Assembly (NCBI GenBank): GCA_023138835.1
Contig: JAGLOP010000006.1
Coordinates: 62,001-126,000 of the forward strand
Length of the DNA stretch: 64,000 nucleotides
Source: Arcobacteraceae bacterium
Lineage (GTDB): Bacteria > Campylobacterota > Campylobacteria > Campylobacterales > Arcobacteraceae
Direction of reading: 5' to 3'
The notes beneath the pieces are model-generated. The model was not told the DNA's origin. It searched no databases and saw only the letters and a program-made list of their open reading frames with translations. Both the position numbers and the translations under genes were made by a program. Positions 34,902-51,157 of this stretch are shown one piece after another. Positions within the stretch are counted from its first letter, which is position 1, and every line of letters starts with the position of its first letter.

Positions 34902-36011
34902 CTATATAAAATTTAAATGCTGAGGATTATTTCCACTTGGAACTTCTAATTTATTAAGCCCTTTTTTATAACTGTCTAATACCTCATTTGTTTTATCTTG
35001 TAAACATAATGTTTCACACATTGTACAAGCATCAAACTTATCTGAAGCTAAAAAATCCATAACTTCCCAATATCTATCACTTTTTACTATATCCTTAAAT
35101 CTAACATTTGGATCAGTTATATTTGTTATATGGTATTGCTTATATTTTTCATTAAAAAAACTTCCACAAGGTGCTATAAGTCCAGTTCCAGACATTTGTA
35201 AATGAAATGGCGTACCATAACATCTATTATAGTTTCTAACACCTTTTGATGTTATCTTTGACCATTTAGCAGTTACAAAATATTCATCATCACTATAACT
35301 TTCTGCTTCTTTTAAAAGTTCATATAAATTCTCATATTCATTATAATCAACACCTAAAGTACCATCTTCATCATCACTGCAATGTTTTATGACCAAATAA
35401 TCAGGTCTCAACTCTTTTCCCAGCTTTGCTAAAGGAATAATTTGATCACCGTATTTTGGCATAAGAACCATCTGAATACCAATAGTTACATCAAGATTTA
35501 ACTCTTTTTTTACTCTCATTGCTATTTTAATATTTTCACAGGTTTCATAAAATTTTTCTACTGGGACTCCCATAATCTCACTATATCTTTGAGGTTCACC
35601 AGCACTAAAATTAAATCTTAAATATGTAAGTGAAGGTAAAATCTTTCTTAATACTTTTTCATTTAAAGTATTTCCATGAGTCGCTATTGCCATATCTAAA
35701 CCAACTTTTTTACCATATACAATCACATCTTCATATATTGGATTAGCCGTACTTTCACCATCACTAACTAAACTTATAGCTTTAACACCAATTTCACTAC
35801 AATCATCTAAAAAGTTTTTCATAATATCATAGGTAATTTTATGTGCTTTATTTCTTTGCATATTGGCATAGCAAAATTCACAATTATACTGACAAGCTTG
35901 AGTTAATGCCATATCAATTGTAATAGGTGCAATTCTTTTGCCATCTTTCCATTCTTTTAATCTATCTTGATGCCATAAAATCTTTGAACCATCTAATATT
36001 AACTCTGACAT
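34902..36011 (-). CDS. radical SAM protein (SPASM-like C-term)
   Basis: ACQYNCEFCYA; C-terminal Cys cluster CTMCETLC; tail QHLNFI. Confidence 0.87.
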   Translation of the reverse strand: MSELILDGSKILWHQDRLKEWKDGKRIAPITIDMALTQACQYNCEFCYANMQRNKAHKITYDIMKNFLDDCSEIGVKAISLVSDGESTANPIYEDVIVYGKKVGLDMAIATHGNTLNEKVLRKILPSLTYLRFNFSAGEPQRYSEIMGVPVEKFYETCENIKIAMRVKKELNLDVTIGIQMVLMPKYGDQIIPLAKLGKELRPDYLVIKHCSDDEDGTLGVDYNEYENLYELLKEAESYSDDEYFVTAKWSKITSKGVRNYNRCYGTPFHLQMSGTGLIAPCGSFFNEKYKQYHITNITDPNVRFKDIVKSDRYWEVMDFLASDKFDACTMCETLCLQDKTNEVLDSYKKGLNKLEVPSGNNPQHLNFI

Positions 36012-36024
36012 TTTAATCCCTTTT

Positions 36025-36519
36025 TTATAAACATCTTAGGTATGTTGGACCATTATGCTCAAACATATCTTTTATATCTTGCTTTAAAGTTTCTCTGACA
36101 GGAGAAAAGATTTTAATATTTTTAAAAATTTCAATCATTTTTACATCATCTTCATCCATACAATGACTACGACCTAGTTGCTCAAAATAATTATCTGCAC
36201 CAACACCAATTAATTTTACATCAAGTTTATGTTCATTTAAATCATATCGTATTTGTTCATAAGCTCTCATTACTAAAAAAGGCACTTGTGAATAAACAAT
36301 TGGCTTAAGCCCTGCAAGATACATACCAGCACTCATACTAATAGTTGCTTGTTCACAAATACCTGTATTAAAAGTTCTATCTTTATGATTACCAAAAAAA
36401 TCATCTAAAACTGAAAAACCCATATCTCCTACAAGCAAACACATCTTTTCATCATCTTTAAAATATTGATACACTTCTGCCATAACTTCTTGTTTTGTAG
36501 CTAAATTATTCATCACCAC
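36025..36519 (-). CDS. transketolase pyrimidine-binding domain, truncated C-terminal subunit
   Basis: FNTGICEQATISMSAGMYLAGLKPIVYSQVPFLVMRAYEQIRYD; 164 aa. Confidence 0.85.
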   Translation of the reverse strand: MVMNNLATKQEVMAEVYQYFKDDEKMCLLVGDMGFSVLDDFFGNHKDRTFNTGICEQATISMSAGMYLAGLKPIVYSQVPFLVMRAYEQIRYDLNEHKLDVKLIGVGADNYFEQLGRSHCMDEDDVKMIEIFKNIKIFSPVRETLKQDIKDMFEHNGPTYLRCL

Positions 36520-37297
36520 AACCTAATATATAACCATCCTGTGTTGGACATCTAAAATGATGTGCAATAGAATTTTCAAATAATTCTATACCTTTTCCTT
36601 TTATTGTATCGCAAACTATTATAGATAAACTATCATTCTTAAAATTAAAGAATTTATCCATAGTAGTTTTTAATATATTTTCATCATGTCCATCAATTCT
36701 ACTAAAATTATTGGTATAAGCATTTAAAACTTTTGATAATTTATCATTATCAAGTCCTACATTTTTAACTTTGTCCATAGCCTGAAGTCCATTTGCATCT
36801 ACTATTAAAAGAAGATTATCAAGTTTAAATCTAACAGCAAGAGCCAAAGCTTCAAAATTACTTCCCTCTTGCATCTCCCCGTCACCAACCATACACACTA
36901 CTTTTTTATTTGTTCCTTGCATTTTGAAAGCTTGTGCCATGCCAACTGCTATTGGTAATCCATGCCCTAAAGAACCTGTAGATGCCTCTATCATATAATC
37001 TAAATTTTGAGTTAGGCAACCTTTTATGGTAGCGCCATTATAAAACTTATCCAACTCCTCTTTTGGTAATAGTCCAAGTTGGTTTAATATTATATAATAA
37101 GCATAAGCGCCATGTCCTTTACTTAATATAAACCTATCTCTACTTTCATCTTTAGGATTATTTTTATTATAAGTTAAAAAATCTCTAAATAAAACTGTTA
37201 AAATCTCTACACAAGATAAAGAGGGGGCAAGATGTCCTGCTCCTGTTTTACAAGATAATTCTATAGTTTTTTTTCGTATATCATCACTATTTAGCAT
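36506..37297 (-). CDS. transketolase N-terminal (ThDP-binding) subunit
   Basis: KTGAGHLAPSLSCVEILTVLF; SKGHGAYAYY; GSLGHGLPIAVGMAQAFK; VGDGEMQEGSNFEAL. Confidence 0.93.
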   Translation of the reverse strand: MLNSDDIRKKTIELSCKTGAGHLAPSLSCVEILTVLFRDFLTYNKNNPKDESRDRFILSKGHGAYAYYIILNQLGLLPKEELDKFYNGATIKGCLTQNLDYMIEASTGSLGHGLPIAVGMAQAFKMQGTNKKVVCMVGDGEMQEGSNFEALALAVRFKLDNLLLIVDANGLQAMDKVKNVGLDNDKLSKVLNAYTNNFSRIDGHDENILKTTMDKFFNFKNDSLSIIVCDTIKGKGIELFENSIAHHFRCPTQDGYILGCGDE

Positions 37298-38287
37298 CTA
37301 TTTATCTCCTAAACACTCAAACCAATCTTTGGTAGCATCTTCAATACTAGTTTCATCCCATACAGGTGCATCTCTCCACTGTTCAATATTATCAAGCATA
37401 ATCTTTACACCATCTTCAAAGCTAACCTTTGGTTTCCAACCTAAAACTCTTTTTATTTTAGAAATATCAGCATAAGTACAGTCAGGCTCACCAGGTCTTT
37501 TCGGAATATAAAGTTTTTTTCCACCAAGTAGTTCAACTAAATAGTTTATACTGTAAGTGTTATCACTTCCTACATTAAAAATCTCTTGAGTTATATCACT
37601 TTGACTAGCAAGATAACAAGCATCAACTATATCAGTCACATAAGTAAAATCTCTTGTTTGTTCCCCATCTCCAACAATCGTTAAAGGCTTATTATTAAGC
37701 AATTGTGCTAAAAATACACCAAATACAGCCCCATAAGTTCCGCTAGTTCGATGTCGTATCCCATATACATTAAAAAATCTCATAGAAACTACTGGCATAT
37801 CATAAAGCTGACCCCAGTGCACCACATACTGTTCCCCTACTGTTTTAGTATGTGCATAAGGATATTCAGGTGCAATTGCACTAGTTTCTAGTGTTGGATA
37901 AATATCTGGTATTCCATAACAACTACTTGAAGCTGCATATACAAACTTTTTAAGATTTTTTGATTTTTTAGCTGCTTCTAAAACTCTTATAGTTCCATCT
38001 ACATTTGCTCTATGATACTTTATAGGATTATTAATAGAGGGAACTATATCAGCAAGTGCGGCATAATGAAATATATAATCTACATTTTCAAAATATTCAT
38101 CCAAGTTTACTTCATAATCACCAATATCAGCATTGATAAATTTTATTTTACCCTTATGATGTTCAATATTATTAAGTCGTCCATTTGCAAGATTATCTAT
38201 AACAATAACTTCATAGTTTTCTTTAACTAACAAATCAACCATATGAGAACCAATAAACCCAGCTCCCCCTGTTACTATTGCTTTCAT
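37298..38287 (-). CDS. NAD-dependent epimerase/dehydratase
   Basis: VTGGAGFIGSHMVDLL; ASSSCYGIPDIYPTLETS...YPYAHTKTVGE. Confidence 0.9.
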   Translation of the reverse strand: MKAIVTGGAGFIGSHMVDLLVKENYEVIVIDNLANGRLNNIEHHKGKIKFINADIGDYEVNLDEYFENVDYIFHYAALADIVPSINNPIKYHRANVDGTIRVLEAAKKSKNLKKFVYAASSSCYGIPDIYPTLETSAIAPEYPYAHTKTVGEQYVVHWGQLYDMPVVSMRFFNVYGIRHRTSGTYGAVFGVFLAQLLNNKPLTIVGDGEQTRDFTYVTDIVDACYLASQSDITQEIFNVGSDNTYSINYLVELLGGKKLYIPKRPGEPDCTYADISKIKRVLGWKPKVSFEDGVKIMLDNIEQWRDAPVWDETSIEDATKDWFECLGDK

Positions 38288-38296
38288 ACTATGCCT

Positions 38297-39391
38297 TTAT
38301 ATAAAATTATCATGCTCTAACGGATTTTTTAATCTAAACAGATATCGATTTACTTCATCCATTCTACAATTCACTCTACAATCATCTATATTAAGTTTAT
38401 CCATTATATATTTATAAGACTCTTTTCTCTTTTCACTTTCCCAAATCTCTTCAAAACTATTATCATATATATTTCCATAACAAAAATTATCATTTCCTAA
38501 ATATGCACTACAGCCAAATACTTTACCATCTGCTGCTATATATCCCCAAAAAAATGGAGTTGAGTAACACTTATCATAAGGTTGTTTCTTTTGAATATAT
38601 TTTTTCATAGTATTTGCTCTAAATACTACATTAAATCTTTCATCAGAGATTGTATTTAACTCTTCTTCTATATCCATCATTTTACTATAATCTATATCTT
38701 CATATTTACTTGTATCACTTGATAGATGTTGTGAATATGGTTTAATTACAAGATAATCAACTCCAATATCTTTACATTTTTTAGCTAATATAATTGCTTC
38801 ATTTTTATTTTCAGGAAGAAGAAGCATTTGTACCCCAATAGTACATTTAAGATTATTCTTTCTTTTATACTCAAGTGCAAATTCTAAATTTAATATAACT
38901 CTATCAAAATCCATCTCGTTTGTTTGATGAATAGAAGCATAAGTTTTTGCCGTTCCTGCATTTAAACTTACTTTAATCCACGAACAATGTTCTATATATT
39001 TTTGAACTGCTTTTTTATTTAATGGTACAAAATTAGTTGTAAGCGAAGTATCAATACCTACTTGTGTACAATGTTCAACTATTAAATCTAAGTCTTTAAA
39101 CAAAAGAGGTTCACCTTCTCCTGCAAACATTACACTTTTCACACCATGTTCTGCCATATTTGTTAATGTATTTTTTAATATATTAAAATCTAACCCAATA
39201 TTTTCATATCCCATATAATCTAATGCACAAAATGTACATCTATGATTACATCCACCATAAGGAGATATCTCTACATATATAGGATAAATTTTTTTTAATT
39301 TATCCCAATTAGCTTTAGCTTCATACCACTTTGCAATTCTTATTGGATGAAAATTTAATTTATGACTATCTATAGCATATTTATCACTCAT
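38297..39391 (-). CDS. radical SAM protein (SPASM-like C-term)
   Basis: GGCNHRCTFCALDYMGYE; GCSAYLGNDNFCYGNIYDNSFEEIWES; tail EHDNFI. Confidence 0.88.
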   Translation of the reverse strand: MSDKYAIDSHKLNFHPIRIAKWYEAKANWDKLKKIYPIYVEISPYGGCNHRCTFCALDYMGYENIGLDFNILKNTLTNMAEHGVKSVMFAGEGEPLLFKDLDLIVEHCTQVGIDTSLTTNFVPLNKKAVQKYIEHCSWIKVSLNAGTAKTYASIHQTNEMDFDRVILNLEFALEYKRKNNLKCTIGVQMLLLPENKNEAIILAKKCKDIGVDYLVIKPYSQHLSSDTSKYEDIDYSKMMDIEEELNTISDERFNVVFRANTMKKYIQKKQPYDKCYSTPFFWGYIAADGKVFGCSAYLGNDNFCYGNIYDNSFEEIWESEKRKESYKYIMDKLNIDDCRVNCRMDEVNRYLFRLKNPLEHDNFI

Positions 39392-40358
39392 ATATTATCC
39401 TGCTATTTTCTACTTTTATCTCTTGCATTAAATCAGTAATAACATCCAAACATTCTTTTGGATACTTACCAACTGCCGTTTCTTCTGACATTTGAACACC
39501 ATAAATACCACTTTTTAAAGTATTGTACATATCAATTACTTCAGGTATAATTGGTATTGGATTTTGTTCCATTGATTTTAGGAACTGTGTTGCTAAAAAT
39601 ACTTTTTTATTATAAAAAATAGCCTTTTCTATAATATAATTTTGAAAAGATGGTACCTTAGTAAGTCCTATTTCTGTAGATAAATCTCCTCTATCAATTA
39701 GAATATATTCAACCTCATCTAATATTTCATGAAGATTATTAACTGCACTTAGAGTTTCAACTTTTGAGATGATTGTACTATTTTTTATAAGCTGTTTAGC
39801 TTCTTGTATATCTTTAGCATTTCTTACAAAAGAAAGTCCTACAAAATCTAAGCTATATTTGTTTGCTAATTTTATCAATTCTTTATCTTTATCAAATAAA
39901 AATGGTATATTCTGATGTATACCTCTTACATGCATACCTTTATTATTTAAAAGTCTTCCCGTAGAATGTGATAAAAATGTAATACATGATAATTCAAAAT
40001 TTATATTCTTAACTACAAACCTAAATATAGAATCATTTGCCCAAACTTCATCACCAATTCTTATATGCTTGAAAAACTCTTTATAGTTCATTTGATTAAA
40101 GTATATGTTAAATTCTTCACCATCTTTTATATCAATAAAACCATCCTTAAGATTTGCTGTTCTTACTTTATTTCCAGGTAAATCCATTAAAATATTTGCG
40201 TTTTTAACTTGAGATTGTATCTCTAAAATATATTTTTCTATTGTCTCTATTGTTCCGTGTGCACCATTGATTCTATAAATATTTCTTTCGTTATGAACTT
40301 CATTTAATGGAGTAGTATGCAATAATGATGGTCCTACTGTTGCAATTATTCTTTTCAT
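39384..40358 (-). CDS. stand-alone pyruvate kinase-like protein lacking C-terminal regulatory domain
   Basis: MDLPGNKVRT; ISKVETLSAVNNLHEILDEVEYILIDRGDLSTEIG; FLATQFLKSMEQNPIPIIPEVIDM...MSEETAVGKYPKE; 324 aa. Confidence 0.85.
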   Translation of the reverse strand: MKRIIATVGPSLLHTTPLNEVHNERNIYRINGAHGTIETIEKYILEIQSQVKNANILMDLPGNKVRTANLKDGFIDIKDGEEFNIYFNQMNYKEFFKHIRIGDEVWANDSIFRFVVKNINFELSCITFLSHSTGRLLNNKGMHVRGIHQNIPFLFDKDKELIKLANKYSLDFVGLSFVRNAKDIQEAKQLIKNSTIISKVETLSAVNNLHEILDEVEYILIDRGDLSTEIGLTKVPSFQNYIIEKAIFYNKKVFLATQFLKSMEQNPIPIIPEVIDMYNTLKSGIYGVQMSEETAVGKYPKECLDVITDLMQEIKVENSRIIYE

Positions 40359-40360
40359 TT

Positions 40361-41431
40361 TTATCCTTTAATAAACTTATCATCTTTTAATTTTATAATA
40401 CTATCAGCTACTTCTGGTCTCATAAAAACTTCATTTGGTCTTTGACCTTGTGCTAACATCGATCGTATTTGTGTTCCACTGATCTTTTGTATGTATTCTA
40501 TACTATGATTACAAGTTTTATCAGAAACTATCTGTGAACATTTTGTGCAAAAATATGGCTCACTTAACAACAATAATTCTATACCAATATCATAATTGGA
40601 TATAATCTTTCTAGCTAATTCTTGAGCTTCGTATTTACCATAAAAGTCACCAACACCAGCATGATCTCTTCCCATTATAAAATGTGTACAACCTAAATTT
40701 CTTCTAATAATAGCATGAAATATTGCCTCTTTTGGTCCTGCGTATCTCATGGGTGTTTTTAATGTATCAAAATATATATTTAAATTTGTATAATATTCTT
40801 TAATCATTATATTATAGCCATTTACAACTGCTTCTTCACTAAAATCTCCAGCTTTTTTCCAACCAACCAATGGATTGATAAATAATGCATCACATACTTC
40901 AAGTGCCACTCGCTGAAGATGTTCATGAGCTTTATGTATTGGATTTCTTGTCTGAAAGCCTGCTATTGTATTCCAATTTTTACTTTTAAAATATGCTTTA
41001 GTATCTTTTGGATCTAAACTATTGTTTAAAATATTTTCATCTATAATAACAATCTTACCGCCAACTCTATATTTATCTCTTTTTAATTCTTTTGCAACAC
41101 CTGGATGATTTTCATCATCAGTACCAAAAATTTTAAGTATATCCTCTTGAATATTTACAATATAACAATCATCAATTTCCATATATCCAATAGTATTATG
41201 ATTATAAGATAAATCTAAAGTAGTTGCTTCCACTACTTGCATATAAGTATGATAATCTAAGTCTAAACTAATAGGGATAGTCCAAACTTCACCATTGTTT
41301 AATAACATTTTATTAACAACACTATGATAGTCAGATGAATTCATAAAACCACTTAATGGGTAAAATAAACCTGTTGCAATATTTATACAATCTTGCAATA
41401 ATTCTTCATTTAACTCATAATTAATTTTCAT
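40361..41431 (-). CDS. sat: sulfate adenylyltransferase (ATP sulfurylase)
   Basis: AGFQTRNPIHKAHEHLQRVALE; MGRDHAGVGDFYGKYEAQ; GTQIRSMLAQGQRPNEVFMRPEVADSI. Confidence 0.95.
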   Translation of the reverse strand: MKINYELNEELLQDCINIATGLFYPLSGFMNSSDYHSVVNKMLLNNGEVWTIPISLDLDYHTYMQVVEATTLDLSYNHNTIGYMEIDDCYIVNIQEDILKIFGTDDENHPGVAKELKRDKYRVGGKIVIIDENILNNSLDPKDTKAYFKSKNWNTIAGFQTRNPIHKAHEHLQRVALEVCDALFINPLVGWKKAGDFSEEAVVNGYNIMIKEYYTNLNIYFDTLKTPMRYAGPKEAIFHAIIRRNLGCTHFIMGRDHAGVGDFYGKYEAQELARKIISNYDIGIELLLLSEPYFCTKCSQIVSDKTCNHSIEYIQKISGTQIRSMLAQGQRPNEVFMRPEVADSIIKLKDDKFIKG

Positions 41432-41909
41432 CTAAACTACTTACATATTCTACAATCATTTTCAAACTATCCTTTATATCTATTTTAGAAGTATCAATTA
41501 TTAAGTTTGAATTTGTAGGTTCATCAAATTCTAAATCAACTCCAATCACATTTACACTATTATAAACTTCATTCTTATTAGTTATATCTTGTAAATCTTT
41601 TTTCAAATAAACCTCTATATAAGTATCAAACTTTTTTTTAGAAAAATTTCGCAAATCTTGATATGGAGATATATTACATACAATTGGTATGATATCATTT
41701 TGCTCCAATAAATATGTACTAAGCATTATTCTTTTAATATTTGCTATTCTATCTTCTTTTTTATACCCTAAATCATTATCATAAAAATCTCTAACCAAAT
41801 CACCATCTATAATACAACTTTTAACATTTTTATTGTCAAAATGTTCTTTTAACGCATTGCCAAGAGTAGTTTTCCCAGCTCCACTGATTCCAAGTAACCA
41901 AATTACCAT
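41421..41909 (-). CDS. cysC: adenylylsulfate kinase-like (CysC)
   Basis: IWLLGISGAGKTTLGNALKEHF; IDGDLVRDFYDNDLGYKKEDRIANIKR; next to sat. Confidence 0.88.
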   Translation of the reverse strand: MVIWLLGISGAGKTTLGNALKEHFDNKNVKSCIIDGDLVRDFYDNDLGYKKEDRIANIKRIMLSTYLLEQNDIIPIVCNISPYQDLRNFSKKKFDTYIEVYLKKDLQDITNKNEVYNSVNVIGVDLEFDEPTNSNLIIDTSKIDIKDSLKMIVEYVSSLDEN

Positions 41910-42619
41910 ATTATGCCTTTACTAACTAATAAACTACCAGAAAATAGTAAAAATAAAGAGAATAATTTATCATAATTATAGTCTTGTATTTTATTAAAGA
42001 ATAATTTATTTATAACTAAATAAGTAGTTAATCCTATTATTATATATATATAATTGCTAAACTGATATTTAACATTCAAAAATAATATTGTAACTATTTG
42101 AAAGATTGCAAAAGTCATATATACTATTGCGGTAGTGACTCTTTTTTGATATTTATTTAATCTTGTAGTAGATATCTTAGCTGTTAATAATGCCCCTCCA
42201 AGATTTGTAATTCCATGCGTAATTCCCATACCTATATAAAATATTTTGTTGTAACTTAGTAATACTTTAAACCAAGTTTTTAATATCTTTATATAGCCCT
42301 TAATGGCAATAAATATTAAAAACAAACCTATTGGAAGATTAAGATTCACATTAATTTCAGATGCTAACAGTAAAAATAATATTATAAATGGCACTGTAAA
42401 TAAAATAATATTCTTATATAAATTAAAATCTATTTCTTTATAGTCTTTGGTTATTTGTAAAAAATTTATTGCTACAGAAATAGGAAGTAAAATAAGTAAA
42501 GTTTCTAAAAATGGATAATTTACCAATAAAAGCATTGGTGTACCAAAAAGAATAACACCAACGCCAAATAAAGATTGAATAGCTGAAGTTACAATAACTA
42601 CAAGTATAATTATTTCCAT
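41903..42619 (-). CDS. TauE/SafE family anion permease
   Basis: Multiple TMs, SLFGVGVILFGTPMLLLV, GITHGITNLGGALLTAKIS; adjacent to sat/cysC. Confidence 0.78.
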   Translation of the reverse strand: MEIIILVVIVTSAIQSLFGVGVILFGTPMLLLVNYPFLETLLILLPISVAINFLQITKDYKEIDFNLYKNIILFTVPFIILFLLLASEINVNLNLPIGLFLIFIAIKGYIKILKTWFKVLLSYNKIFYIGMGITHGITNLGGALLTAKISTTRLNKYQKRVTTAIVYMTFAIFQIVTILFLNVKYQFSNYIYIIIGLTTYLVINKLFFNKIQDYNYDKLFSLFLLFSGSLLVSKGIIW

Positions 42620-42661
42620 AATTCTTTACATTTCCTTTTCTTTATATTCTAAATAGATAAA

Positions 42662-43768
42662 CTATATACTTATCTTATAAAAGTTATTTATTGTATTACA
42701 AATATATTCTACTTCTTTCGTTGTAATATTTGATATAGGCAATGTTAAAATATTTAATGATAATTTTTCCGTATTTTTTAAATTATAATACTTATCTTTA
42801 TATGGTTTCTGTTGATGAATTAAAATAGGATAATGAATTTTAGCTTCAATACCATGCTCTAATAAATACTGTTGTAATTTATCTCTATTTGTAACTTTAA
42901 TTATATATGTATGGTATGTATGATACACATCGCTAGGAACATCAATTAATTTCACCTCTTTTATACTTTTTAATAATTGACTATAAAGATTTGCCGTTTT
43001 TATTCTCTTTCCCAACAAAGAATCTAATATTGTCAATCTATAACTTAAAACTACTGCATTTAAACTATTAAGTCTTGAAACTCTACCTATAATATTTTGC
43101 CTATCTCTATCAATTAAGCCATGATTCCTCACTTGCTTTAAATATATAGAAATATCTTTATCATCAGTAGTAACAATCCCTCCATCTGTGATTCCTGATA
43201 AGTTTTTTGTTGGATGAAGTGAGAAACAACCTATTTTCCCAAAAGTCCCTGTTTTTTTACCTTTATATACAGAGCCTACACTTTGTGCAGCATCTTCTAT
43301 TATATCTATATTATATTCTTTAGCAATAGAATTAATTTCATCCATTTCACAAACAAGGCCCATTAAATGAACCGGAATAATGGCTTTAGTTTTTTTTGTT
43401 ATTACAGCTCTTAATTTTAAAGAATCCATTAACAAATTATCATTAATATCTACAAAAATAGGTGTCGCACCAACATATTCAATAGCATTTGCAGTAGCTA
43501 TAAAACTATTTGATACTGTTATTACCTCATCACCTTGACCTATTCCCAAACTTTTTAATGCAAAAATAAGGGCATCCGTTCCTGAATTTAATGCAATAGC
43601 ATATTTGCTACCACAATACTTGGCAAAGTTTGCTTCAAATTCTTCAACTTGCTTTGCATAAACAAATTGTCCACTTAAAAACAACTCTTTTAACCTTGGT
43701 GAAATTTCCTCTTCATATTCTTCTTCACTTATACCTAAATTTACATAATCAATCATGTTTATTCCCAA
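42662..43768 (-). CDS. DegT/DnrJ/EryC1/StrS family aminotransferase
   Basis: CGSKYAIALNSGTDALIFALKSLGIGQGDEVITVSNSFIATANAIEYVGATPIFVDI; FSLHPTKNLSGITDGG. Confidence 0.9.
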   Translation of the reverse strand: MGINMIDYVNLGISEEEYEEEISPRLKELFLSGQFVYAKQVEEFEANFAKYCGSKYAIALNSGTDALIFALKSLGIGQGDEVITVSNSFIATANAIEYVGATPIFVDINDNLLMDSLKLRAVITKKTKAIIPVHLMGLVCEMDEINSIAKEYNIDIIEDAAQSVGSVYKGKKTGTFGKIGCFSLHPTKNLSGITDGGIVTTDDKDISIYLKQVRNHGLIDRDRQNIIGRVSRLNSLNAVVLSYRLTILDSLLGKRIKTANLYSQLLKSIKEVKLIDVPSDVYHTYHTYIIKVTNRDKLQQYLLEHGIEAKIHYPILIHQQKPYKDKYYNLKNTEKLSLNILTLPISNITTKEVEYICNTINNFYKISI

Positions 43769-44666
43769 AATATTTTTTATAATACAAATCCAATTCTTCT
43801 TTATATTCAGATTTAATTAAATCTGAACTATTTCTATATGAAAGTTGTGGCAAATGCTTTTTTTTAAAATTTAAATTTATATTATCTTTTTTTACAAAAG
43901 TATGAAATTTTTCTACAACACTAAAACTATCTGTATAAATATCCTCATAATCTATATGCAAAGTTTGTTCTTCTTCAAAATTATTTACAATAGCATCTAT
44001 TTCATTTTGAATGGATTTTACTTGAAAAACAATTTGTTCTATTGGATTCTTGATTTTTAAAACTTCTTCAATATTTTTAGGAGGATGTCCATAAAATATA
44101 TCTATATTACCACTCTTACTTAACCGTGCATTGATAATAGAATTACATATAAAATACAAATCTCTTGTCATATTAATAATTTTTATATTTGGTAAACTTT
44201 TTTTAATTTTTATTAAATTTGATAAAGCAAATACATTATCTATAATTAGAGGTAATTCTTTTGTATTTGCAATAGATATTAAATTTTGTTTTAAGAAATC
44301 AAAGTTATTCATATTAGTATAATGTTTATCACCCTTTAAATCCAACATATCTTTCCAAAACCAACCCCATTCATGTGGTTCATTTATACCATCTGTATTA
44401 CCATATTGAGATAAAAAACTACTCTTATAATTTTTATCTATAAAAGATTTTTCCAACTCTATACCAAAAAGTGGTGCTTTATAAAATTTTGCTAAAAAAT
44501 TACTTATATAACCAACTTCTAAATTACTCGTAAGTAGTTGTTGCAATAATGCTGAAGCACCTCTTGGTTGGGCAATAATAAAATAAATAGGATAAGACTC
44601 TTTTGTAAATTTAGAAAGTAATTTTTTATTTTCATTATATAAAGTTTCATTTAATAAATTCAACAC
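43749..44666 (-). CDS. sulfotransferase-like protein
   Basis: IYFIIAQPRGASALLQQLLTSN PAPS 5'-phosphate loop-like motif; NMTRDLYFICNSIINARLS 3'-phosphate motif-like; 305 aa. Confidence 0.65.
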   Translation of the reverse strand: MLNLLNETLYNENKKLLSKFTKESYPIYFIIAQPRGASALLQQLLTSNLEVGYISNFLAKFYKAPLFGIELEKSFIDKNYKSSFLSQYGNTDGINEPHEWGWFWKDMLDLKGDKHYTNMNNFDFLKQNLISIANTKELPLIIDNVFALSNLIKIKKSLPNIKIINMTRDLYFICNSIINARLSKSGNIDIFYGHPPKNIEEVLKIKNPIEQIVFQVKSIQNEIDAIVNNFEEEQTLHIDYEDIYTDSFSVVEKFHTFVKKDNINLNFKKKHLPQLSYRNSSDLIKSEYKEELDLYYKKYFGNKHD

Positions 44667-44678
44667 GTATATAACCTC

Positions 44679-45725
44679 CTAAATAAAATTAAGATGTTGT
44701 TTTTTAGAAACAACATCTTGATTTAAAATATTATCAACTAAATCATTTAATTCATGATACCTGCAACCAGCTGGACACTTACTCAAATCTAATTTATCAG
44801 ATAACTTCACAATATTCTTTTCTATTTTATCTAAATCATCAGTAATTTTTCCTACACTTACCCTATGTGGACCACAATATATAATCTTATTATCTTCATA
44901 AATATTTACATTAAAGAAACCTGCTACACATAATTTATAATAAAATATCGTATGTTCTTGTTCATGAGATAATATTTGATGTGGTCTATAAAATATTTGA
45001 AAATTATCATTTTCCAAATCTTTTCTAATATGTTCAACAACTGGAGTAATATCTTCATAAGTTAAACTATTCTTTTCTATATTCTCACCCACACCACCTC
45101 TATTAAATACAGGTTTTACTGAAAAATAATCAGCTTTTATCTCAGATGATATTTTTGCACTATTATATAAGTCATCTAAATTTTTATGGTGTGTTGCATA
45201 CTGAATACCAACTGTTGGGATTTTATTTTGGCGTTTATCTATTAAACTTTTAGTATTTTGTATAATCTTGTCAAAATGATTATTTACATCATGCATATAA
45301 TTATGTACTTTCGGACTTCCTGCATCTAAACTTATTCGTATCCAAGTAAAATGATTTAAAATCTCATCTTCAAATCTATCTATTAAATATCCATTTGTAA
45401 ACATCGCTTGTTCTATCCCTAAATTTGATATTGCTACAACTAGTTCTTTAAATCTTGGATATGCAGTTGGTTCTCCATTTCCTACATAAGTTATTGCTTT
45501 TAGACCTCTTTTTTTAGCTTTTTGCAAAAAAGAAATTATTTTATCAAAGTCTAATAAGTGTGCATTATCAAGTTGATATTCATAAGCAGTACACCATAAA
45601 CACCTATGATTACAAAAATTACCTAAACTAATTGTTGCATGTACTGGAAATATTGGTGTACTATTTTTTATAGCCATTATATTTTCAGGGTGATACAATA
45701 TTTTATTAAATGTTAAAAAATTCAT
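44679..45725 (-). CDS. radical SAM protein (SPASM-like)
   Basis: GNFCNHRCLWCTAYE; YVGNGEPTAYPRF; tail QHLNFI. Confidence 0.87.
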   Translation of the reverse strand: MNFLTFNKILYHPENIMAIKNSTPIFPVHATISLGNFCNHRCLWCTAYEYQLDNAHLLDFDKIISFLQKAKKRGLKAITYVGNGEPTAYPRFKELVVAISNLGIEQAMFTNGYLIDRFEDEILNHFTWIRISLDAGSPKVHNYMHDVNNHFDKIIQNTKSLIDKRQNKIPTVGIQYATHHKNLDDLYNSAKISSEIKADYFSVKPVFNRGGVGENIEKNSLTYEDITPVVEHIRKDLENDNFQIFYRPHQILSHEQEHTIFYYKLCVAGFFNVNIYEDNKIIYCGPHRVSVGKITDDLDKIEKNIVKLSDKLDLSKCPAGCRYHELNDLVDNILNQDVVSKKQHLNFI

Positions 45726-45726
45726 A

Positions 45727-46800
45727 TTAATTCTCTTTTATTTTAAAATAATCTTGAATTTTCATTCTCGCAGTAAATAATGCTTCCTCATTTTCTATTC
45801 TATACATATGAGCACAGCCATTACAACTCGTTTCTTCTGCTTGATAGTTTATATGTTTTTCTCTTAATTTATTATATTCATTATTTCGCCAAGTTTTTAA
45901 TAATTTATCACCTTTCATCATATCACCTTTAATATGTATATTATGAAAATCATGTTGACAATGACTAATTTTACCATTTGCTAATATTGTTAAAATTTCA
46001 TAAGGTTTTGGGCAACTTATATATTCTTTTTTATTTACTGTTTGTACTGCTTCTTTATAATCAGCTTCATCATTCTTTTGTGATGCTTGATCAAGCATTG
46101 GACCAATAGTTATATCATCAACATACTCCCCCCATTCTTCTAAAAACAATTCTAAATCTAATTCATTTGATAATAATGTATTTATTGAAATTTCAATTTT
46201 ATCTTCAAAATCTTTCTCTTTTCTCATTAAAAAAAGCTTTTTTAATCCATTTTTAACTTTTTCATAGGAAGCTCCTCTTCTGTATTTTTCAAATAATTCC
46301 TTATTGTGTCCATCTATAGAAATCTGTAAAAAATTAGGCGAAGTTTTAATATCCAAAATTTTTTCTATATTATTATCATTTAATAATGTACCATTTGTAG
46401 AGACTGATATATTCTTAATTCCATTTTCTTTAGCATATTGAATCATATCAAATAATTGCGGATTTAAAAATGGTTCACCCGTCCCTTGAAAAACAAAAAA
46501 CTCTTGAAAATCTTTTGCTTCTTCAACAATTTTTTTAAAAATATTAAACTCTAGCATAGATTTATTTTTATCTGTTAAATAAGTCGGGCACATAAGACAT
46601 GTTAAATTACATGATGAAATTGGTTCGACAGTAACAAGTTTTGGTGGCATAAATTCCTTATCATTAAAAAATGATTGCATACTTCGAGTAGAGCATTTAG
46701 CTGGAATCTTAATATCATTATAAAATCTTTCTTCCACTGGTTTCATAGCACCAATAGTACTCATGTCTCGTTTTCTTTTTTTTATATTTGGATTTATCAT
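45727..46800 (-). CDS. radical SAM/SPASM protein
   Basis: SCNLTCLMCPTYL; FQGTGEPFLNPQ; CPKPYEILTILANGKISHCQHD...CNGCAHM. Confidence 0.88.
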   Translation of the reverse strand: MINPNIKKRKRDMSTIGAMKPVEERFYNDIKIPAKCSTRSMQSFFNDKEFMPPKLVTVEPISSCNLTCLMCPTYLTDKNKSMLEFNIFKKIVEEAKDFQEFFVFQGTGEPFLNPQLFDMIQYAKENGIKNISVSTNGTLLNDNNIEKILDIKTSPNFLQISIDGHNKELFEKYRRGASYEKVKNGLKKLFLMRKEKDFEDKIEISINTLLSNELDLELFLEEWGEYVDDITIGPMLDQASQKNDEADYKEAVQTVNKKEYISCPKPYEILTILANGKISHCQHDFHNIHIKGDMMKGDKLLKTWRNNEYNKLREKHINYQAEETSCNGCAHMYRIENEEALFTARMKIQDYFKIKEN

Positions 46801-46821
46801 CTAGTTTATTATCCTTATTTC

Positions 46822-47766
46822 TTATACTGTTTTTTCTCTGTATTGTGGAAAAAAATCATTATTTTCTTTTTCCATTTTTATTACTAATTTATCATAAATT
46901 TCTTTATTGAATATTTTTTTTCCTATATAAAAAGGTATAGTTTTATTAGAAAATTCACTTTTATATTTATATAACCCATCTTTTCCACCACTTAAAAAGA
47001 ATATCTTCTTTATATCTTTATAGTATTCAAATACTAAATCAAATAATAATGAGTTAAATCCATATTGTAAGTAGCTTGATAAAGTGCCGCCTAAAAAATA
47101 ATATACATTATCATTATCTTCAATTAAAAATAGACTACTTACAACTATACCATAATAAGATATACTAAATATTTTACCAAATTTTACTAAATATTTTAAT
47201 ATTTCTATATCAAAATAAAAATATTGATCAGCTTTTAATCTATCCATTGTTTCGCAATAAGGTATATAAAAACTCTCTACACTATCTTCAATAATAAATT
47301 TATATTGATATTTTCTTGCTTTTTTTATATTCCTTGTTTTTCTTCTTGAAAAATATTTTTGATAATCAACTTGTAAATCAACTATTATATGATTTTGTAG
47401 TTTAATAATATCTAAATATTTATTGATTAAATTATAGTTTTGATGTAACAATGGATTAAATCTAAAAAATCCTGATATTATATTTTCTTGTTTACATTTT
47501 AGTTCAAATTCTTTAAGAATTTTTTCTAATATCTCATCACTTGTATAATAAAATCCACCATAATCAAATGGAGTAATAATATCAAAATACTTATCTTTTT
47601 CCAAAAAAGTTAATTCATTAGAAATATCTCTTTTTATATACTGAAAATAAGCTTTTTCTCCATTAGATTCCAATTTGATGTTCTGATATATACCTTTGTC
47701 AAATTTAGCAACACTTTCACCCCAATCAGAATTATATGAATAGCTAAGTTTATTTAATTTATACAT
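46822..47766 (-). CDS. FemAB/GNAT-like aminoacyl/acyl transferase
   Basis: YFSRRKTRNIKKARKYQYKF; YFLGGTLSSYLQYGFNSLLFDLVFEYYKDIKKIFFLSGGKDGLYKYKSEFS pattern of FemAB-type double GNAT. Confidence 0.65.
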   Translation of the reverse strand: MYKLNKLSYSYNSDWGESVAKFDKGIYQNIKLESNGEKAYFQYIKRDISNELTFLEKDKYFDIITPFDYGGFYYTSDEILEKILKEFELKCKQENIISGFFRFNPLLHQNYNLINKYLDIIKLQNHIIVDLQVDYQKYFSRRKTRNIKKARKYQYKFIIEDSVESFYIPYCETMDRLKADQYFYFDIEILKYLVKFGKIFSISYYGIVVSSLFLIEDNDNVYYFLGGTLSSYLQYGFNSLLFDLVFEYYKDIKKIFFLSGGKDGLYKYKSEFSNKTIPFYIGKKIFNKEIYDKLVIKMEKENNDFFPQYREKTV

Positions 47767-47771
47767 AAAAT

Positions 47772-48863
47772 TTATTTTTTAATTTTATTTCTTCGATTAT
47801 AAATTGACAAATCCATATCAGATAAATCCCATATATCTTTTCTTTTAAAGTCTTTATGAAAATTATGAGTACATCTTTTACAAGCATCTGGTGGATTACT
47901 CGAATTTACACGATTTCTAAAATCAACATATACAGGTGAATTCCAAATCTCTTCTACTGTTTGATCATTTATATTTCCAGCAAAGTCACTACAAGAAAGT
48001 GAAACACACGGTCTTACATTTCCATCCGCTTCTATATGAAATCTTTCAAATGGCTCATAGCATTTTTTATGATATTGCGTCTTTTTTTCAAAATCTAAAT
48101 CATTAAAATCATCTCCATCAAACTCAACTTTTACTTCTAAATCATTAGCTAAAGCTTGAGCTTCTTTTACATATTTACCTATAATATCGCGATGTTTATA
48201 AGGTGTTATATTTACTAACTCTGGAGCATAAGCTTTTAGATATGTTATTTTTACACCTTCTGAACAATCCAACTCTTTAGCTAATCTAATAATACCATTT
48301 AACTCTTCTTTATTTTCATAAGTTAATACAAAAACCAATCTTACTTTTGGATATACAGAATTATTATCTTTTTTAACTTGGTTTAATATTTTAATATTAT
48401 CTATGACAGTATCTAACTTATCTACACCATGATACTTCTCAAACATCTCTTTTGTTATCCCTGCAAATGATATTGTTAAAAAATGTAAATTACCTTTTAC
48501 AATTAACTCGGAAATTTCTTTATCCATTAATATCCCATTTGTAGAAAAATATTTCTCAGCATCAAACTGATTTGTCCATTCAAAGATTTCTTTAAAATGT
48601 TTTGCAAAAAGAGGCTCTGTTGAAGAAAAATAAACTATATGTTTTACGCTTTTTAGAAATGTTTCTAGTTTCATAAATTGATTTAAATCTATTTCATATT
48701 TTGAATAGTAATTTGCAAAGTTCAAGTGACAATATGTACATCGAATATTACAATTACCTGTTAAATTCATACTGATTCTTATAGGATTTGATTTTAAACG
48801 AGACAATCCTTCTTTTTTCTCTTGATCATTAAGTAGTTTATTTTGCTCTATAATCTTATTCAC
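47772..48863 (-). CDS. radical SAM/SPASM protein
   Basis: GNCNIRCTYCHLNF; CYEPFERFHIEADGNVRPCVSLSC...CKRCTHNFHKDF. Confidence 0.9.
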   Translation of the reverse strand: MNKIIEQNKLLNDQEKKEGLSRLKSNPIRISMNLTGNCNIRCTYCHLNFANYYSKYEIDLNQFMKLETFLKSVKHIVYFSSTEPLFAKHFKEIFEWTNQFDAEKYFSTNGILMDKEISELIVKGNLHFLTISFAGITKEMFEKYHGVDKLDTVIDNIKILNQVKKDNNSVYPKVRLVFVLTYENKEELNGIIRLAKELDCSEGVKITYLKAYAPELVNITPYKHRDIIGKYVKEAQALANDLEVKVEFDGDDFNDLDFEKKTQYHKKCYEPFERFHIEADGNVRPCVSLSCSDFAGNINDQTVEEIWNSPVYVDFRNRVNSSNPPDACKRCTHNFHKDFKRKDIWDLSDMDLSIYNRRNKIKK

Positions 48864-49692
48864 TTACTATCCTCTTAAAATTTAAATTGTCAATTTTTCG
48901 TATTGTATATTCAGATGAATTCTTTATTATATCAATATTTTTTAATAAATAATCTGATTTATCATAAATTGCACTAAAAATTTTACCTGTTAAACCATCT
49001 GCTTTATTTGATATTAAAAAATCTATAAGAGAGCCTATTGTTGTACCAACATGATTCAAATCTTGAGTATTATTGTTTTTTTCAATATCACTTACAAGAT
49101 TATCTCTTAGATTTGTATTATATGAGCCTGGAGAGATACAATTTATATCTATGTTATACTCTTTTAACTCTCTAGATAACGACTCATTTAATCCATACAG
49201 AGCATATTTAGATGTTATATATGCACTCTTATTTATAGCTGTTGCATTCCAACCTACACCAGCTCCACAAATATTTATAATTTTTCCCCTTAAATCATTT
49301 TTCATAGACTCTAGGCTTTCGACTATACAATGTAAGCTACCATACAAATTTACATCTAAAGTCTTTTTGTAATTTAGTAAGTTTATATCATCTATTGGAC
49401 CAACTGGACCTGCAATAGCAGCGTTATTAATCAATATATCTATACTATTAAAATCATTTCTTATCATTTTAAAAACTTTCTTAACATCATTTTGGGATGC
49501 TAAATCTACACAGTATGCTTTTAAATTAGTTTGAGGATAAATATTCATAATAAATCGTACAGTTTCATTTAACTTATTTTTATTTTGAGACAAAAGAACT
49601 ATATTAAACTTTTTTTGTGAAGCAAAATAAATCGCTAATTGTTTTCCTATACCACCATTTGCACCAGTTATAATTATTGTTTTTTTAATCAT
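48856..49692 (-). CDS. short-chain dehydrogenase/reductase
   Basis: IIITGANGGIGKQLA; LINNAAIAG; SAYITSKYALYGLNESLSREL. Confidence 0.92.
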   Translation of the reverse strand: MIKKTIIITGANGGIGKQLAIYFASQKKFNIVLLSQNKNKLNETVRFIMNIYPQTNLKAYCVDLASQNDVKKVFKMIRNDFNSIDILINNAAIAGPVGPIDDINLLNYKKTLDVNLYGSLHCIVESLESMKNDLRGKIINICGAGVGWNATAINKSAYITSKYALYGLNESLSRELKEYNIDINCISPGSYNTNLRDNLVSDIEKNNNTQDLNHVGTTIGSLIDFLISNKADGLTGKIFSAIYDKSDYLLKNIDIIKNSSEYTIRKIDNLNFKRIVSE

Positions 49693-51157
49693 TTATAATT
49701 TTATCTCCAAAAAGTTCACATAAGGTTGGTTTATCAAAATTATACATAGGAATAAGTGTAAAGATATTACATATATCAATATATTTTAATGCAAATTCCC
49801 TTATTAATTCTTGATTATAACTTAATAGTATAATACTTTCATCTTTGGACGGCTTAATATCAATAGAATTCAAAGCTGAAAATTCTTTACACTTTTGTAA
49901 TAAAATATCATCATTACAACTGTCTTTATCCCATAAGATGGTACTACTTTCTAATAAATCTTTATTTAAATGTATATCTTTTTTACTTTTTAATGAAAAA
50001 ACAACTTCTTCAAAACCTAAAAGAGCCTTATAATATGGATAAACAATACTATTTTCATCTATGATATTTTCAATTTTTCTATACTCTACTAAATTTTGAG
50101 TACAAAATATATACTTCTTACTCTGTTCAATATCTATTTCTTCTAATTTCACAATATTCTTTATCAATACATCTTTTTTAAAAATATTAAATATATTTTT
50201 AATATTTTCTATTTCAATATCATTAAGTCCAATACATACAACTATAAAAGTTGTATGTAACGATATAAAATCTGATAAATTATTAATACTTGTATATCCA
50301 AGCAATACACTAACATCTCCCAACAATAATTGAATTCTATAAAATATATCTATATCAAAAAATTCTTTTGCTGTATTAGTTTTTTTACCTTTATTATTCC
50401 AATATGCACCATTATTTAGTGCCTCTTCCAATTCATTATAAATTTGTATAGAATCACTATTAAGAGATAATATTTGTGCTATTCTTTTAATTTCATTTAA
50501 TTTATCTGTTATTGTTAAGTTTTCAAATGTAAATTCATAAACATTATTATCATCCTTATACTTAATAAAATCAACAGCATTAAATCGTATTTCATTAAAG
50601 AAACAAATTCTTAAATAACTAAAAGCTTTTTGTAAATCCTCAGGATAAAGACCATAATTCATATTATTATTAGTATATCTTCTTATTTGAAAACTCAACT
50701 GATTAGAACTAATCGTTTTTTGATATTTTTCTTTACTTATACTTTGAGCTTTTATAATCGAAGTGGCTTCATCAAGTGGATTTCTATGTATAAAAAAATA
50801 GTGTGAAATATATTTGTCAATTTGATGTGTTTTATACATTCTCATAGATTTATGTGTTTGAAATACTGAACATTTAGACGCTATATATTTTGGTTCTAAA
50901 AAATTATTTTCATAGTATAAAAAATTTTTATTCTTTATATTTTCATAATATTTAATAGTCAATACATTAAACCCCAAATCTTTTAATGGCTGCACAACAT
51001 CCATACATTCGCCATCAACATCAAATGGAAAAACTTCTTTATCATCAGACAATAATTGTGATATTGACTTAAATTGAGAATTAGATTTTAAATATTTAGC
51101 TACTATACCCCATAAATATCCCGTAGATGTTCTTTGTGGTCCACCTATATAAATCAT
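49685..51157 (-). CDS. sulfotransferase-like protein with ~190-aa unassigned C-terminal region
   Basis: N-term IYIGGPQRTSTGYLWGIVAKYL (P-loop-like); SHYFFIHRNPLDEATSIIKAQS (3'-phosphate motif-like); 490 aa. Confidence 0.6.
   Translation of the reverse strand: MIYIGGPQRTSTGYLWGIVAKYLKSNSQFKSISQLLSDDKEVFPFDVDGECMDVVQPLKDLGFNVLTIKYYENIKNKNFLYYENNFLEPKYIASKCSVFQTHKSMRMYKTHQIDKYISHYFFIHRNPLDEATSIIKAQSISKEKYQKTISSNQLSFQIRRYTNNNMNYGLYPEDLQKAFSYLRICFFNEIRFNAVDFIKYKDDNNVYEFTFENLTITDKLNEIKRIAQILSLNSDSIQIYNELEEALNNGAYWNNKGKKTNTAKEFFDIDIFYRIQLLLGDVSVLLGYTSINNLSDFISLHTTFIVVCIGLNDIEIENIKNIFNIFKKDVLIKNIVKLEEIDIEQSKKYIFCTQNLVEYRKIENIIDENSIVYPYYKALLGFEEVVFSLKSKKDIHLNKDLLESSTILWDKDSCNDDILLQKCKEFSALNSIDIKPSKDESIILLSYNQELIREFALKYIDICNIFTLIPMYNFDKPTLCELFGDKIIND

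Follow-up and report, generated by a model that had tools for sequence, protein, structure and literature searches.

The phosphoramidate block and the sulfation module

The window, by which we mean the whole 64,000-nucleotide stretch of Arcobacteraceae DNA analysed here, contains flagellin, nonulosonate-type and Maf-like genes, and among its minus-strand genes is a contiguous block that resembles the phosphoramidate genes of Campylobacter. The block opens with a Cj1415-like CDP-amidate 3'-kinase of the APS-kinase family (55612..56118; APS_kinase, 2.2e-40; PRK05541, 228 bits), ahead of which two glycosyltransferase-like genes are transcribed. It continues with a 256-aa methyltransferase (54841..55611; Methyltransf_11), a Cj1418-like L-glutamine kinase (52523..54841; NF004508, 998 bits against a cut-off of 501; PPDK_N and PEP-utilizers) with relatives in many phyla, a Cj1417-like gamma-glutamyl-CDP-amidate hydrolase (51900..52526; NF045546, 189.8 bits against a cut-off of 250; Peptidase_C26) and a Cj1416-like CTP:phosphoglutamine cytidylyltransferase (51154..51903; NTP_transferase), homologues of which adjoin a glutamine kinase in other genomes. 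By its linkage, the methyltransferase is a candidate phosphoramidate O-methylase; such a gene is present in most loci of this kind, and many of them hold a second copy, about 35% identical.

The final gene of the block, ST490 (49685..51157), encodes a 490-aa orphan, sulfotransferase-like protein that is a candidate phosphoramidate transferase. The stretch from 51157 down to 49685 is a single open frame on the minus strand (the plus strand is stop-rich there), and, as the sequence-only reading had stated, the gene is directly coupled to the cytidylyltransferase: its ATG overlaps the stop codon of the Cj1416-like gene by 4 bp in an ATGA junction, and a ribosome-site-like stretch, AGAGGA, lies directly upstream of the start. 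From the Cj1415-like gene on, the gaps between neighbors are 0, -1, -4, -4 and -4 bp, the last being this overlap. ST490 is the sole gene of the block that codes for neither a known pathway enzyme nor a methyltransferase, and it shares with the NF058596 family, described below, linkage to Cj1415-1418 homologues, here in an operon-like block.

A sulfation module is found farther along the same strand. ATP sulfurylase (Sat; 40361..41431; PF01747, 7.2e-82) adjoins an APS kinase, CysC2 (41421..41909; TIGR00455, 110 bits against a cut-off of 138.7), which, with the Cj1415-like gene, makes up the genome's only two genes of the APS-kinase family. The two belong to a conserved module (window 39384-42619, minus strand; L142:8862-12115, where CysQ lies behind it) that also contains TauE and a pyruvate-kinase-like protein, the latter an unexpected companion of sulfate activation, and the CysC-Sat pair recurs in L141. 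Three genes from this TauE-CysC2-Sat-PK module stands ST305 (43749..44666, minus strand), a second sulfotransferase of 305 aa, probably PAPS-using, which scores 29.5 bits with Sulfotransfer_3, over the cut-off, and is the genome's only PF13469 match. A search for its relatives gave only two distant ones, in loci having neither Sat nor glutamine kinase, and these are uninformative on its donor. At the end of rSAM348, just before ST305, lies a terminator-like hairpin of 12 pairs followed by a T-rich tail (44691-44719, minus strand), a possible boundary between the phosphoramidate and sulfation blocks. Five radical-SAM genes are scattered through a glycan-type gene run (34902-48863, minus strand).

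Sulfotransferase-type genes at phosphoramidate loci of other genomes

No gene of the pathway is more specific than the glutamine kinase, which was used to retrieve comparable loci (80, from many phyla); 19 regions from genomes of the order were retrieved via the Cj1416-like protein. A sulfotransferase-domain protein is encoded in 31 of the 78 loci with a glutamine kinase (Cj1418) ORF, a Cj1421/Cj1422-type DUF2972 protein in 17, and one or the other in 47. When only ORFs of 200 aa or more are counted, sulfotransferases account for 28/159 of those adjoining pathway genes versus 2/426 at least three genes away (Fisher p = 6e-15, to be read with the related loci not being independent), and 18 of 35 sulfotransferase genes directly adjoin the Cj1415-like kinase. 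Because PF13469 is moreover rare in the order overall (12/120 genomes), the association is more than that of glycan islands merely containing sulfotransferases. In the locus DNA analysed, ATP sulfurylase was encoded in none of the 78 loci, and on this ground the idea that these loci themselves produce PAPS was set aside.

The gene next to the Cj1415-like kinase shows, in many loci, the sulfotransferase signature GRSGSxxLQSLLDxHP...R-x-P...S, and several locus sulfotransferases score above the cut-off of Pfam Sulfotransfer_3 or Sulfotransfer_1. A profile built from locus sulfotransferases matches human tyrosylprotein sulfotransferase 1 (2e-14), and the profile of a second set (L053, L054 and L057) matches cytosolic sulfotransferases (4.5e-8). 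In Lachnospiraceae loci, the sulfotransferase domain forms the C-terminal part of proteins of ~550-850 aa, and the Pfam matches are weak.

Other kinds of protein are also found at these loci. A CDP-alcohol phosphatidyltransferase (L022) and a Glyphos_transf protein (L029) occupy a place comparable to that of ST490, which counts against the reading of ST490 as a transferase of the sulfotransferase type. The former (PF01066; L022:8124-8855) directly follows a Cj1416-like gene, 75% identical to that of the window, exactly where ST490 lies, and possibly represents an alternative solution to phosphoramidate transfer. In another subtype, a PF00551 formyltransferase-domain protein is encoded near the Cj1415-like kinase (L051:3582-4319, L068:8511-9203, L109:7887-8612; L063, L070 and L115 are look-alikes by sequence), often together with a short unannotated protein and with no DUF2972 or profile-recognised sulfotransferase in the locus; the phosphoramidate product of this subtype is possibly different.

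The known TRANSFERASES Cj1421 and Cj1422 were assigned their MeOPN role through knockouts (PMC11800397; PMC3907429). They belong to NCBIfam NF058596 (O-methyl phosphoramidate transferase), of which DUF2972 is the C-terminal part. Thirteen divergent members share only five invariant residues, and three of these, R97, D98 and P99, sit in an RDPISxxK[ST] motif that comes after a hydrophobic strand and is preceded by a near-invariant G loop, so that NF058596/DUF2972 carries a conserved 3'-phosphate-type motif. AlphaFold2, run on the core of a C. jejuni DUF2972 member with a 19-sequence alignment, gave a confident model (pLDDT 81, pTM 0.81) with a strand-loop-helix both at the G-containing loop and at the RDP motif. 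When this model was compared with the PDB by Foldseek, ranks 1-5 were all PAPS sulfotransferases (tyrosylprotein sulfotransferases 1 and 2, Teg12, and the Schistosoma and hydroxysteroid sulfotransferases; probability 0.90-0.99), with scores that were weak in themselves (E-values of 0.009-0.025, no TM-score above 0.46); P-loop kinases came close behind. The model thus lends moderate support to a sulfotransferase-like P-loop fold for the DUF2972 core. Tandem DUF2972-like genes or fragments adjoin the phosphoramidate genes in Helicobacter-type loci (L075:4681-8413, L077:178-5119, L087:4671-8076, L027:1690-5294).

CysQ normally destroys PAP, the by-product of sulfotransferases. Genes for CysQ-type 3'(2'),5'-bisphosphate nucleotidases occur in 21 of 96 phosphoramidate loci (L047:12938-13684, L059:12950-13696, L058:6115-6855 and 18 further loci), often between or adjoining the Cj1417- and Cj1416-like genes, and three of the four proteins tested passed the TIGR01331 cut-off. 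In loci whose DNA holds no Sat, CysQ would clear the cytidine 3',5'-bisphosphate left by a sulfotransferase-like phosphoramidate transferase. No Inositol_P/CysQ homologue was found in the window's own genome (86.6% complete), and this was counted against the transferase reading of ST490.

Taken as a general rule, the earlier suggestion that a sulfotransferase fold could transfer phosphoramidate, 3'-phospho-CDP-amidate being a look-alike of PAPS, is well supported by sulfotransferase genes beside Cj1415-1418 homologues in many phyla with no Sat nearby, by the RDP...S/T motif and PAPS-sulfotransferase structural matches of the Cj1421/Cj1422 family, and by CysQ in many loci. The same comparison bears on the possibility that ST490 is an ordinary PAPS-dependent sulfotransferase of the Sat-CysC2 module, which follows the Cj1416-like gene by happenstance. 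The island also has a PAPS-making module, with Sat, CysC2 and TauE placed 7-10 kb downstream on the strand of ST490; the motifs of ST490 are those of PAPS enzymes; and the solved-structure sulfotransferases that match the neighbor families of phosphoramidate loci are all PAPS users. However, a different sulfotransferase, ST305, is the one close to the module, the 4-bp coupling ties ST490 to a phosphoramidate block that is otherwise without a transferase, and sulfotransferase genes accompany phosphoramidate loci that have no Sat in their DNA. On balance, PAPS-dependent sulfation by ST490 appears unlikely.

Motifs and relationships of ST490

Two stretches of ST490 had been likened to the 5'-phosphate loop and the 3'-phosphate motif of PAPS sulfotransferases, and both are present. 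The first, GGPQRTSTGYLWGIV (residues 5-19; 51101..51145, minus strand), is a 5'-phosphate-loop-like motif by sequence and resembles the tyrosylprotein sulfotransferase loop IFIGGVPRSGTTL. Within it, residues 5-16, GGPQRTSTGYLW, look by eye like a 5'-phosphosulfate loop. The block PSSM, however, placed its best match elsewhere, and the GGPQRTST stretch is not the best-scoring first block of the protein in a two-block test. The loop moreover reads RTST versus the usual RSGT, which counts against a sulfotransferase identity. The second stretch belongs to residues 120-136, YFFIHRNPLDEATSIIK (50750..50800, minus strand), which form a 3'-phosphate-type motif (R125, S133) in which RNPLDEATS spans residues 125-133; the arrangement of a hydrophobic strand and then R-x(7)-S is seen in YFFIHRNPLDEATS (residues 120-133), and in a block derived from phosphoramidate-locus sulfotransferases, ISHYFFIHRNPLDEATSIIK scores 10.6 bits, inside the range of bona fide sulfotransferases. 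Residues 211-232, FENLTITDKLNEIKRIAQILSL (50462..50527, minus strand), are similar by eye to the sulfotransferase E-D/N-L strand and the helix next to it, and hhalign gave a weak, non-significant local match starting at residue 223. The C-terminal region (residues 292-490; 49688..50284, minus strand) matched no family or relative, in agreement with the earlier description of the last ~190 aa as unassigned.

Of 1000 shuffles, 8 attained the ordered two-block motif score of ST490, 16.4, as did 9 of 1133 real ORFs, including two that are or look like sulfotransferases; none of 196 ORFs of similar length did so. Against a profile of 27 phosphoramidate-locus sulfotransferases, the best score was 3.0 bits, which 48 of 3000 shuffles also attained and which is not significant, and profile comparisons with three transferase families likewise gave no significant result. 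ST490 lies below the curated cut-off of the sulfotransferase superfamily (PF00685/PF13469), and the whole protein matches nothing in Pfam or NCBIfam at E <= 1, NF058596 and DUF2972 included; a search of PHROGs returned one match (E 0.11), and one of PDB sequences returned none. No homologue was found in 250, 107 and 398 genomes of the order, family and phylum, respectively, in a collection of 85,488 genomes, or in the viral contigs, plasmids and phages searched. NuoD and FeoB, which had appeared as weak candidates, were checked, and their matches were due to chance. A Pelagibacteraceae protein encoded in the equivalent position (L051:8119-9045) gave nothing significant by BLASTP; one tiny, non-significant piece of that alignment pairs the RNP motifs of the two proteins. 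An AlphaFold2 model of ST490, made with no homologues in the input, had a pLDDT of 31 and was uninformative on a P-loop-type fold.

Comparisons with three sets of proteins show where ST490 stands. With the superfamily PF13469/PF00685 (tyrosylprotein sulfotransferases, cytosolic SULTs and Teg12/StaL), it shares, in the same order, a putative N-terminal G-x-x-R-[ST]-x-T-like loop, an R-N-P-x-D-x-A-x-S motif and, by eye, an E/D-N/D-L strand followed by a helix; it differs in its lack of a profile match, in its RTST loop, in an extra C-terminal region of ~200 aa and in the donor nucleotide and transferred group that we infer for it. With the sulfotransferases of phosphoramidate loci (L047, L059, L104, L124, L089 and L096, the C-terminal domains of the ~800-aa Lachnospiraceae proteins, and L053/L054/L057), it shares partner genes, sulfotransferase motifs and a locus without Sat among those genes. 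Unlike ST490, the better-matching of these are recognisable Sulfotransfer_1/_3 members, and about half adjoin the Cj1415-like kinase, few being found after the Cj1416-like gene, the place of ST490. Like Cj1421 and Cj1422, ST490 is encoded next to Cj1415-1418 homologues, has a hydrophobic strand that leads into an R-x-P...S/T motif, and would be expected to use 3'-phospho-CDP-amidate as donor. The proposed comparison with these two proteins nevertheless yielded no significant similarity: profiles detected none, hhalign aligned YFFIHRNPLDEATSIIK with the RDPIS motif of DUF2972 at a non-significant E of 0.27, and ST490 has neither the DUF2972 region nor a helical region at its N-terminus.

That ST490 itself is a sulfotransferase is therefore an educated guess, which draws on gene position and on motifs only marginally above chance. 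The profiles, the shuffles and the uninformative model would all agree with a protein without this fold, such as an unrelated glycan-modifying or scaffold protein with a chance likeness in its motifs. Against this, the motifs have the order and spacing expected of sulfotransferases, in which S likewise lies eight residues after R, and a transferase is what the general rule leads one to expect at this gene position. We regard a chance likeness as improbable, slightly more so than PAPS-dependent sulfation.

A putative phosphoramidate transferase

Going by position, the simplest pairing is of ST490 with phosphoramidate and of ST305 with PAPS, and the reverse is possible. That ST305 transfers phosphoramidate and ST490 sulfates, or that another gene of the island (glycosyltransferase-annotated) or a distant one performs the transfer, agrees with the 37 bits of ST305 in the two blocks trained on phosphoramidate loci, far over the score of ST490, and with C. 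jejuni 81-176, where one MeOPN transferase gene lies far from the biosynthesis genes (PMC3907429), but ST305 stands near the conserved TauE-CysC2-Sat-PK module and Sulfotransfer_3 is so broad a family that the block score is silent on the donor, and we consider such a swapped or shared pairing the least probable of the alternatives.

We somewhat favor the view that ST490 belongs, although highly diverged, to the sulfotransferase superfamily and moves (O-methyl-)phosphoramidate from 3'-phospho-cytidine-5'-diphosphoramidate onto a hydroxyl group of a surface or flagellin glycan, with cytidine 3',5'-bisphosphate as the by-product. Formation of 3'-phospho-CDP-amidate by Cj1415-1418 was shown in C. 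jejuni (PMC11800397), and homology and gene order suggest the same route in the organism of the window. The Cj1418-like kinase would produce phosphoglutamine, the Cj1416-like enzyme would join it to CMP, the Cj1417-like hydrolase would set free CDP-amidate, and the Cj1415-like kinase would add the 3'-phosphate. In the fifth step, the N-terminal loop of ST490 would grip the 5'-diphosphate, R125 and S133 would grip the 3'-phosphate, and the acceptor hydroxyl would attack the terminal phosphorus; the 256-aa methyltransferase would act before or after transfer. The comparison of loci, together with the Cj1421-type fold, speaks for enzymes of the sulfotransferase type performing this step in general, and such proteins probably use the amidate in its 3'-phosphorylated form. 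Position and motifs suggest that ST490 performs the step here, and the flagellin, nonulosonate-type and Maf-like genes of the window point to a surface or flagellin glycan as the acceptor.

In broader terms, the evidence leans slightly towards phosphoramidate decoration being a nucleotide-swapped copy of sulfation that operates on CDP-amidate, with an APS-kinase-like 3'-kinase, transferases of the sulfotransferase fold (Cj1421/Cj1422 and several independent sulfotransferase lineages in many phyla) and CysQ. In this scheme, ST490 would be an extremely divergent, independently recruited transferase. If the scheme is true, CDP-amidate is 3'-phosphorylated because the pathway follows that of sulfation with another nucleotide.

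PAPS enzymes recognize their donor by its 3'-phosphate, and for this reason a sulfotransferase-type transferase would, if true, account for the 3'-phosphate of the carrier. No explanation for this phosphate was found in the MeOPN literature examined. DUF2972 is mentioned in existing literature, and in the open literature, papers that name phosphoramidate, sulfotransferases and Campylobacter together do not, by title or abstract, concern a link between the first two. For the last MeOPN step, in which the group leaves the activated carrier, knockouts are the only basis of assignment, and 3'-phospho-CDP-amidate is still termed the "likely donor" (PMC11800397). Some Campylobacter species possess Cj1416-1418 and are missing a Cj1421/1422 homologue (PMC3907429); for these, the scheme, if true, would supply candidate transferases. 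It would also predict a 3',5'-bisphosphate by-product and with it a need for CysQ, and many annotated sulfotransferases whose genes adjoin those of glutamine kinases would move phosphorus, not sulfur.
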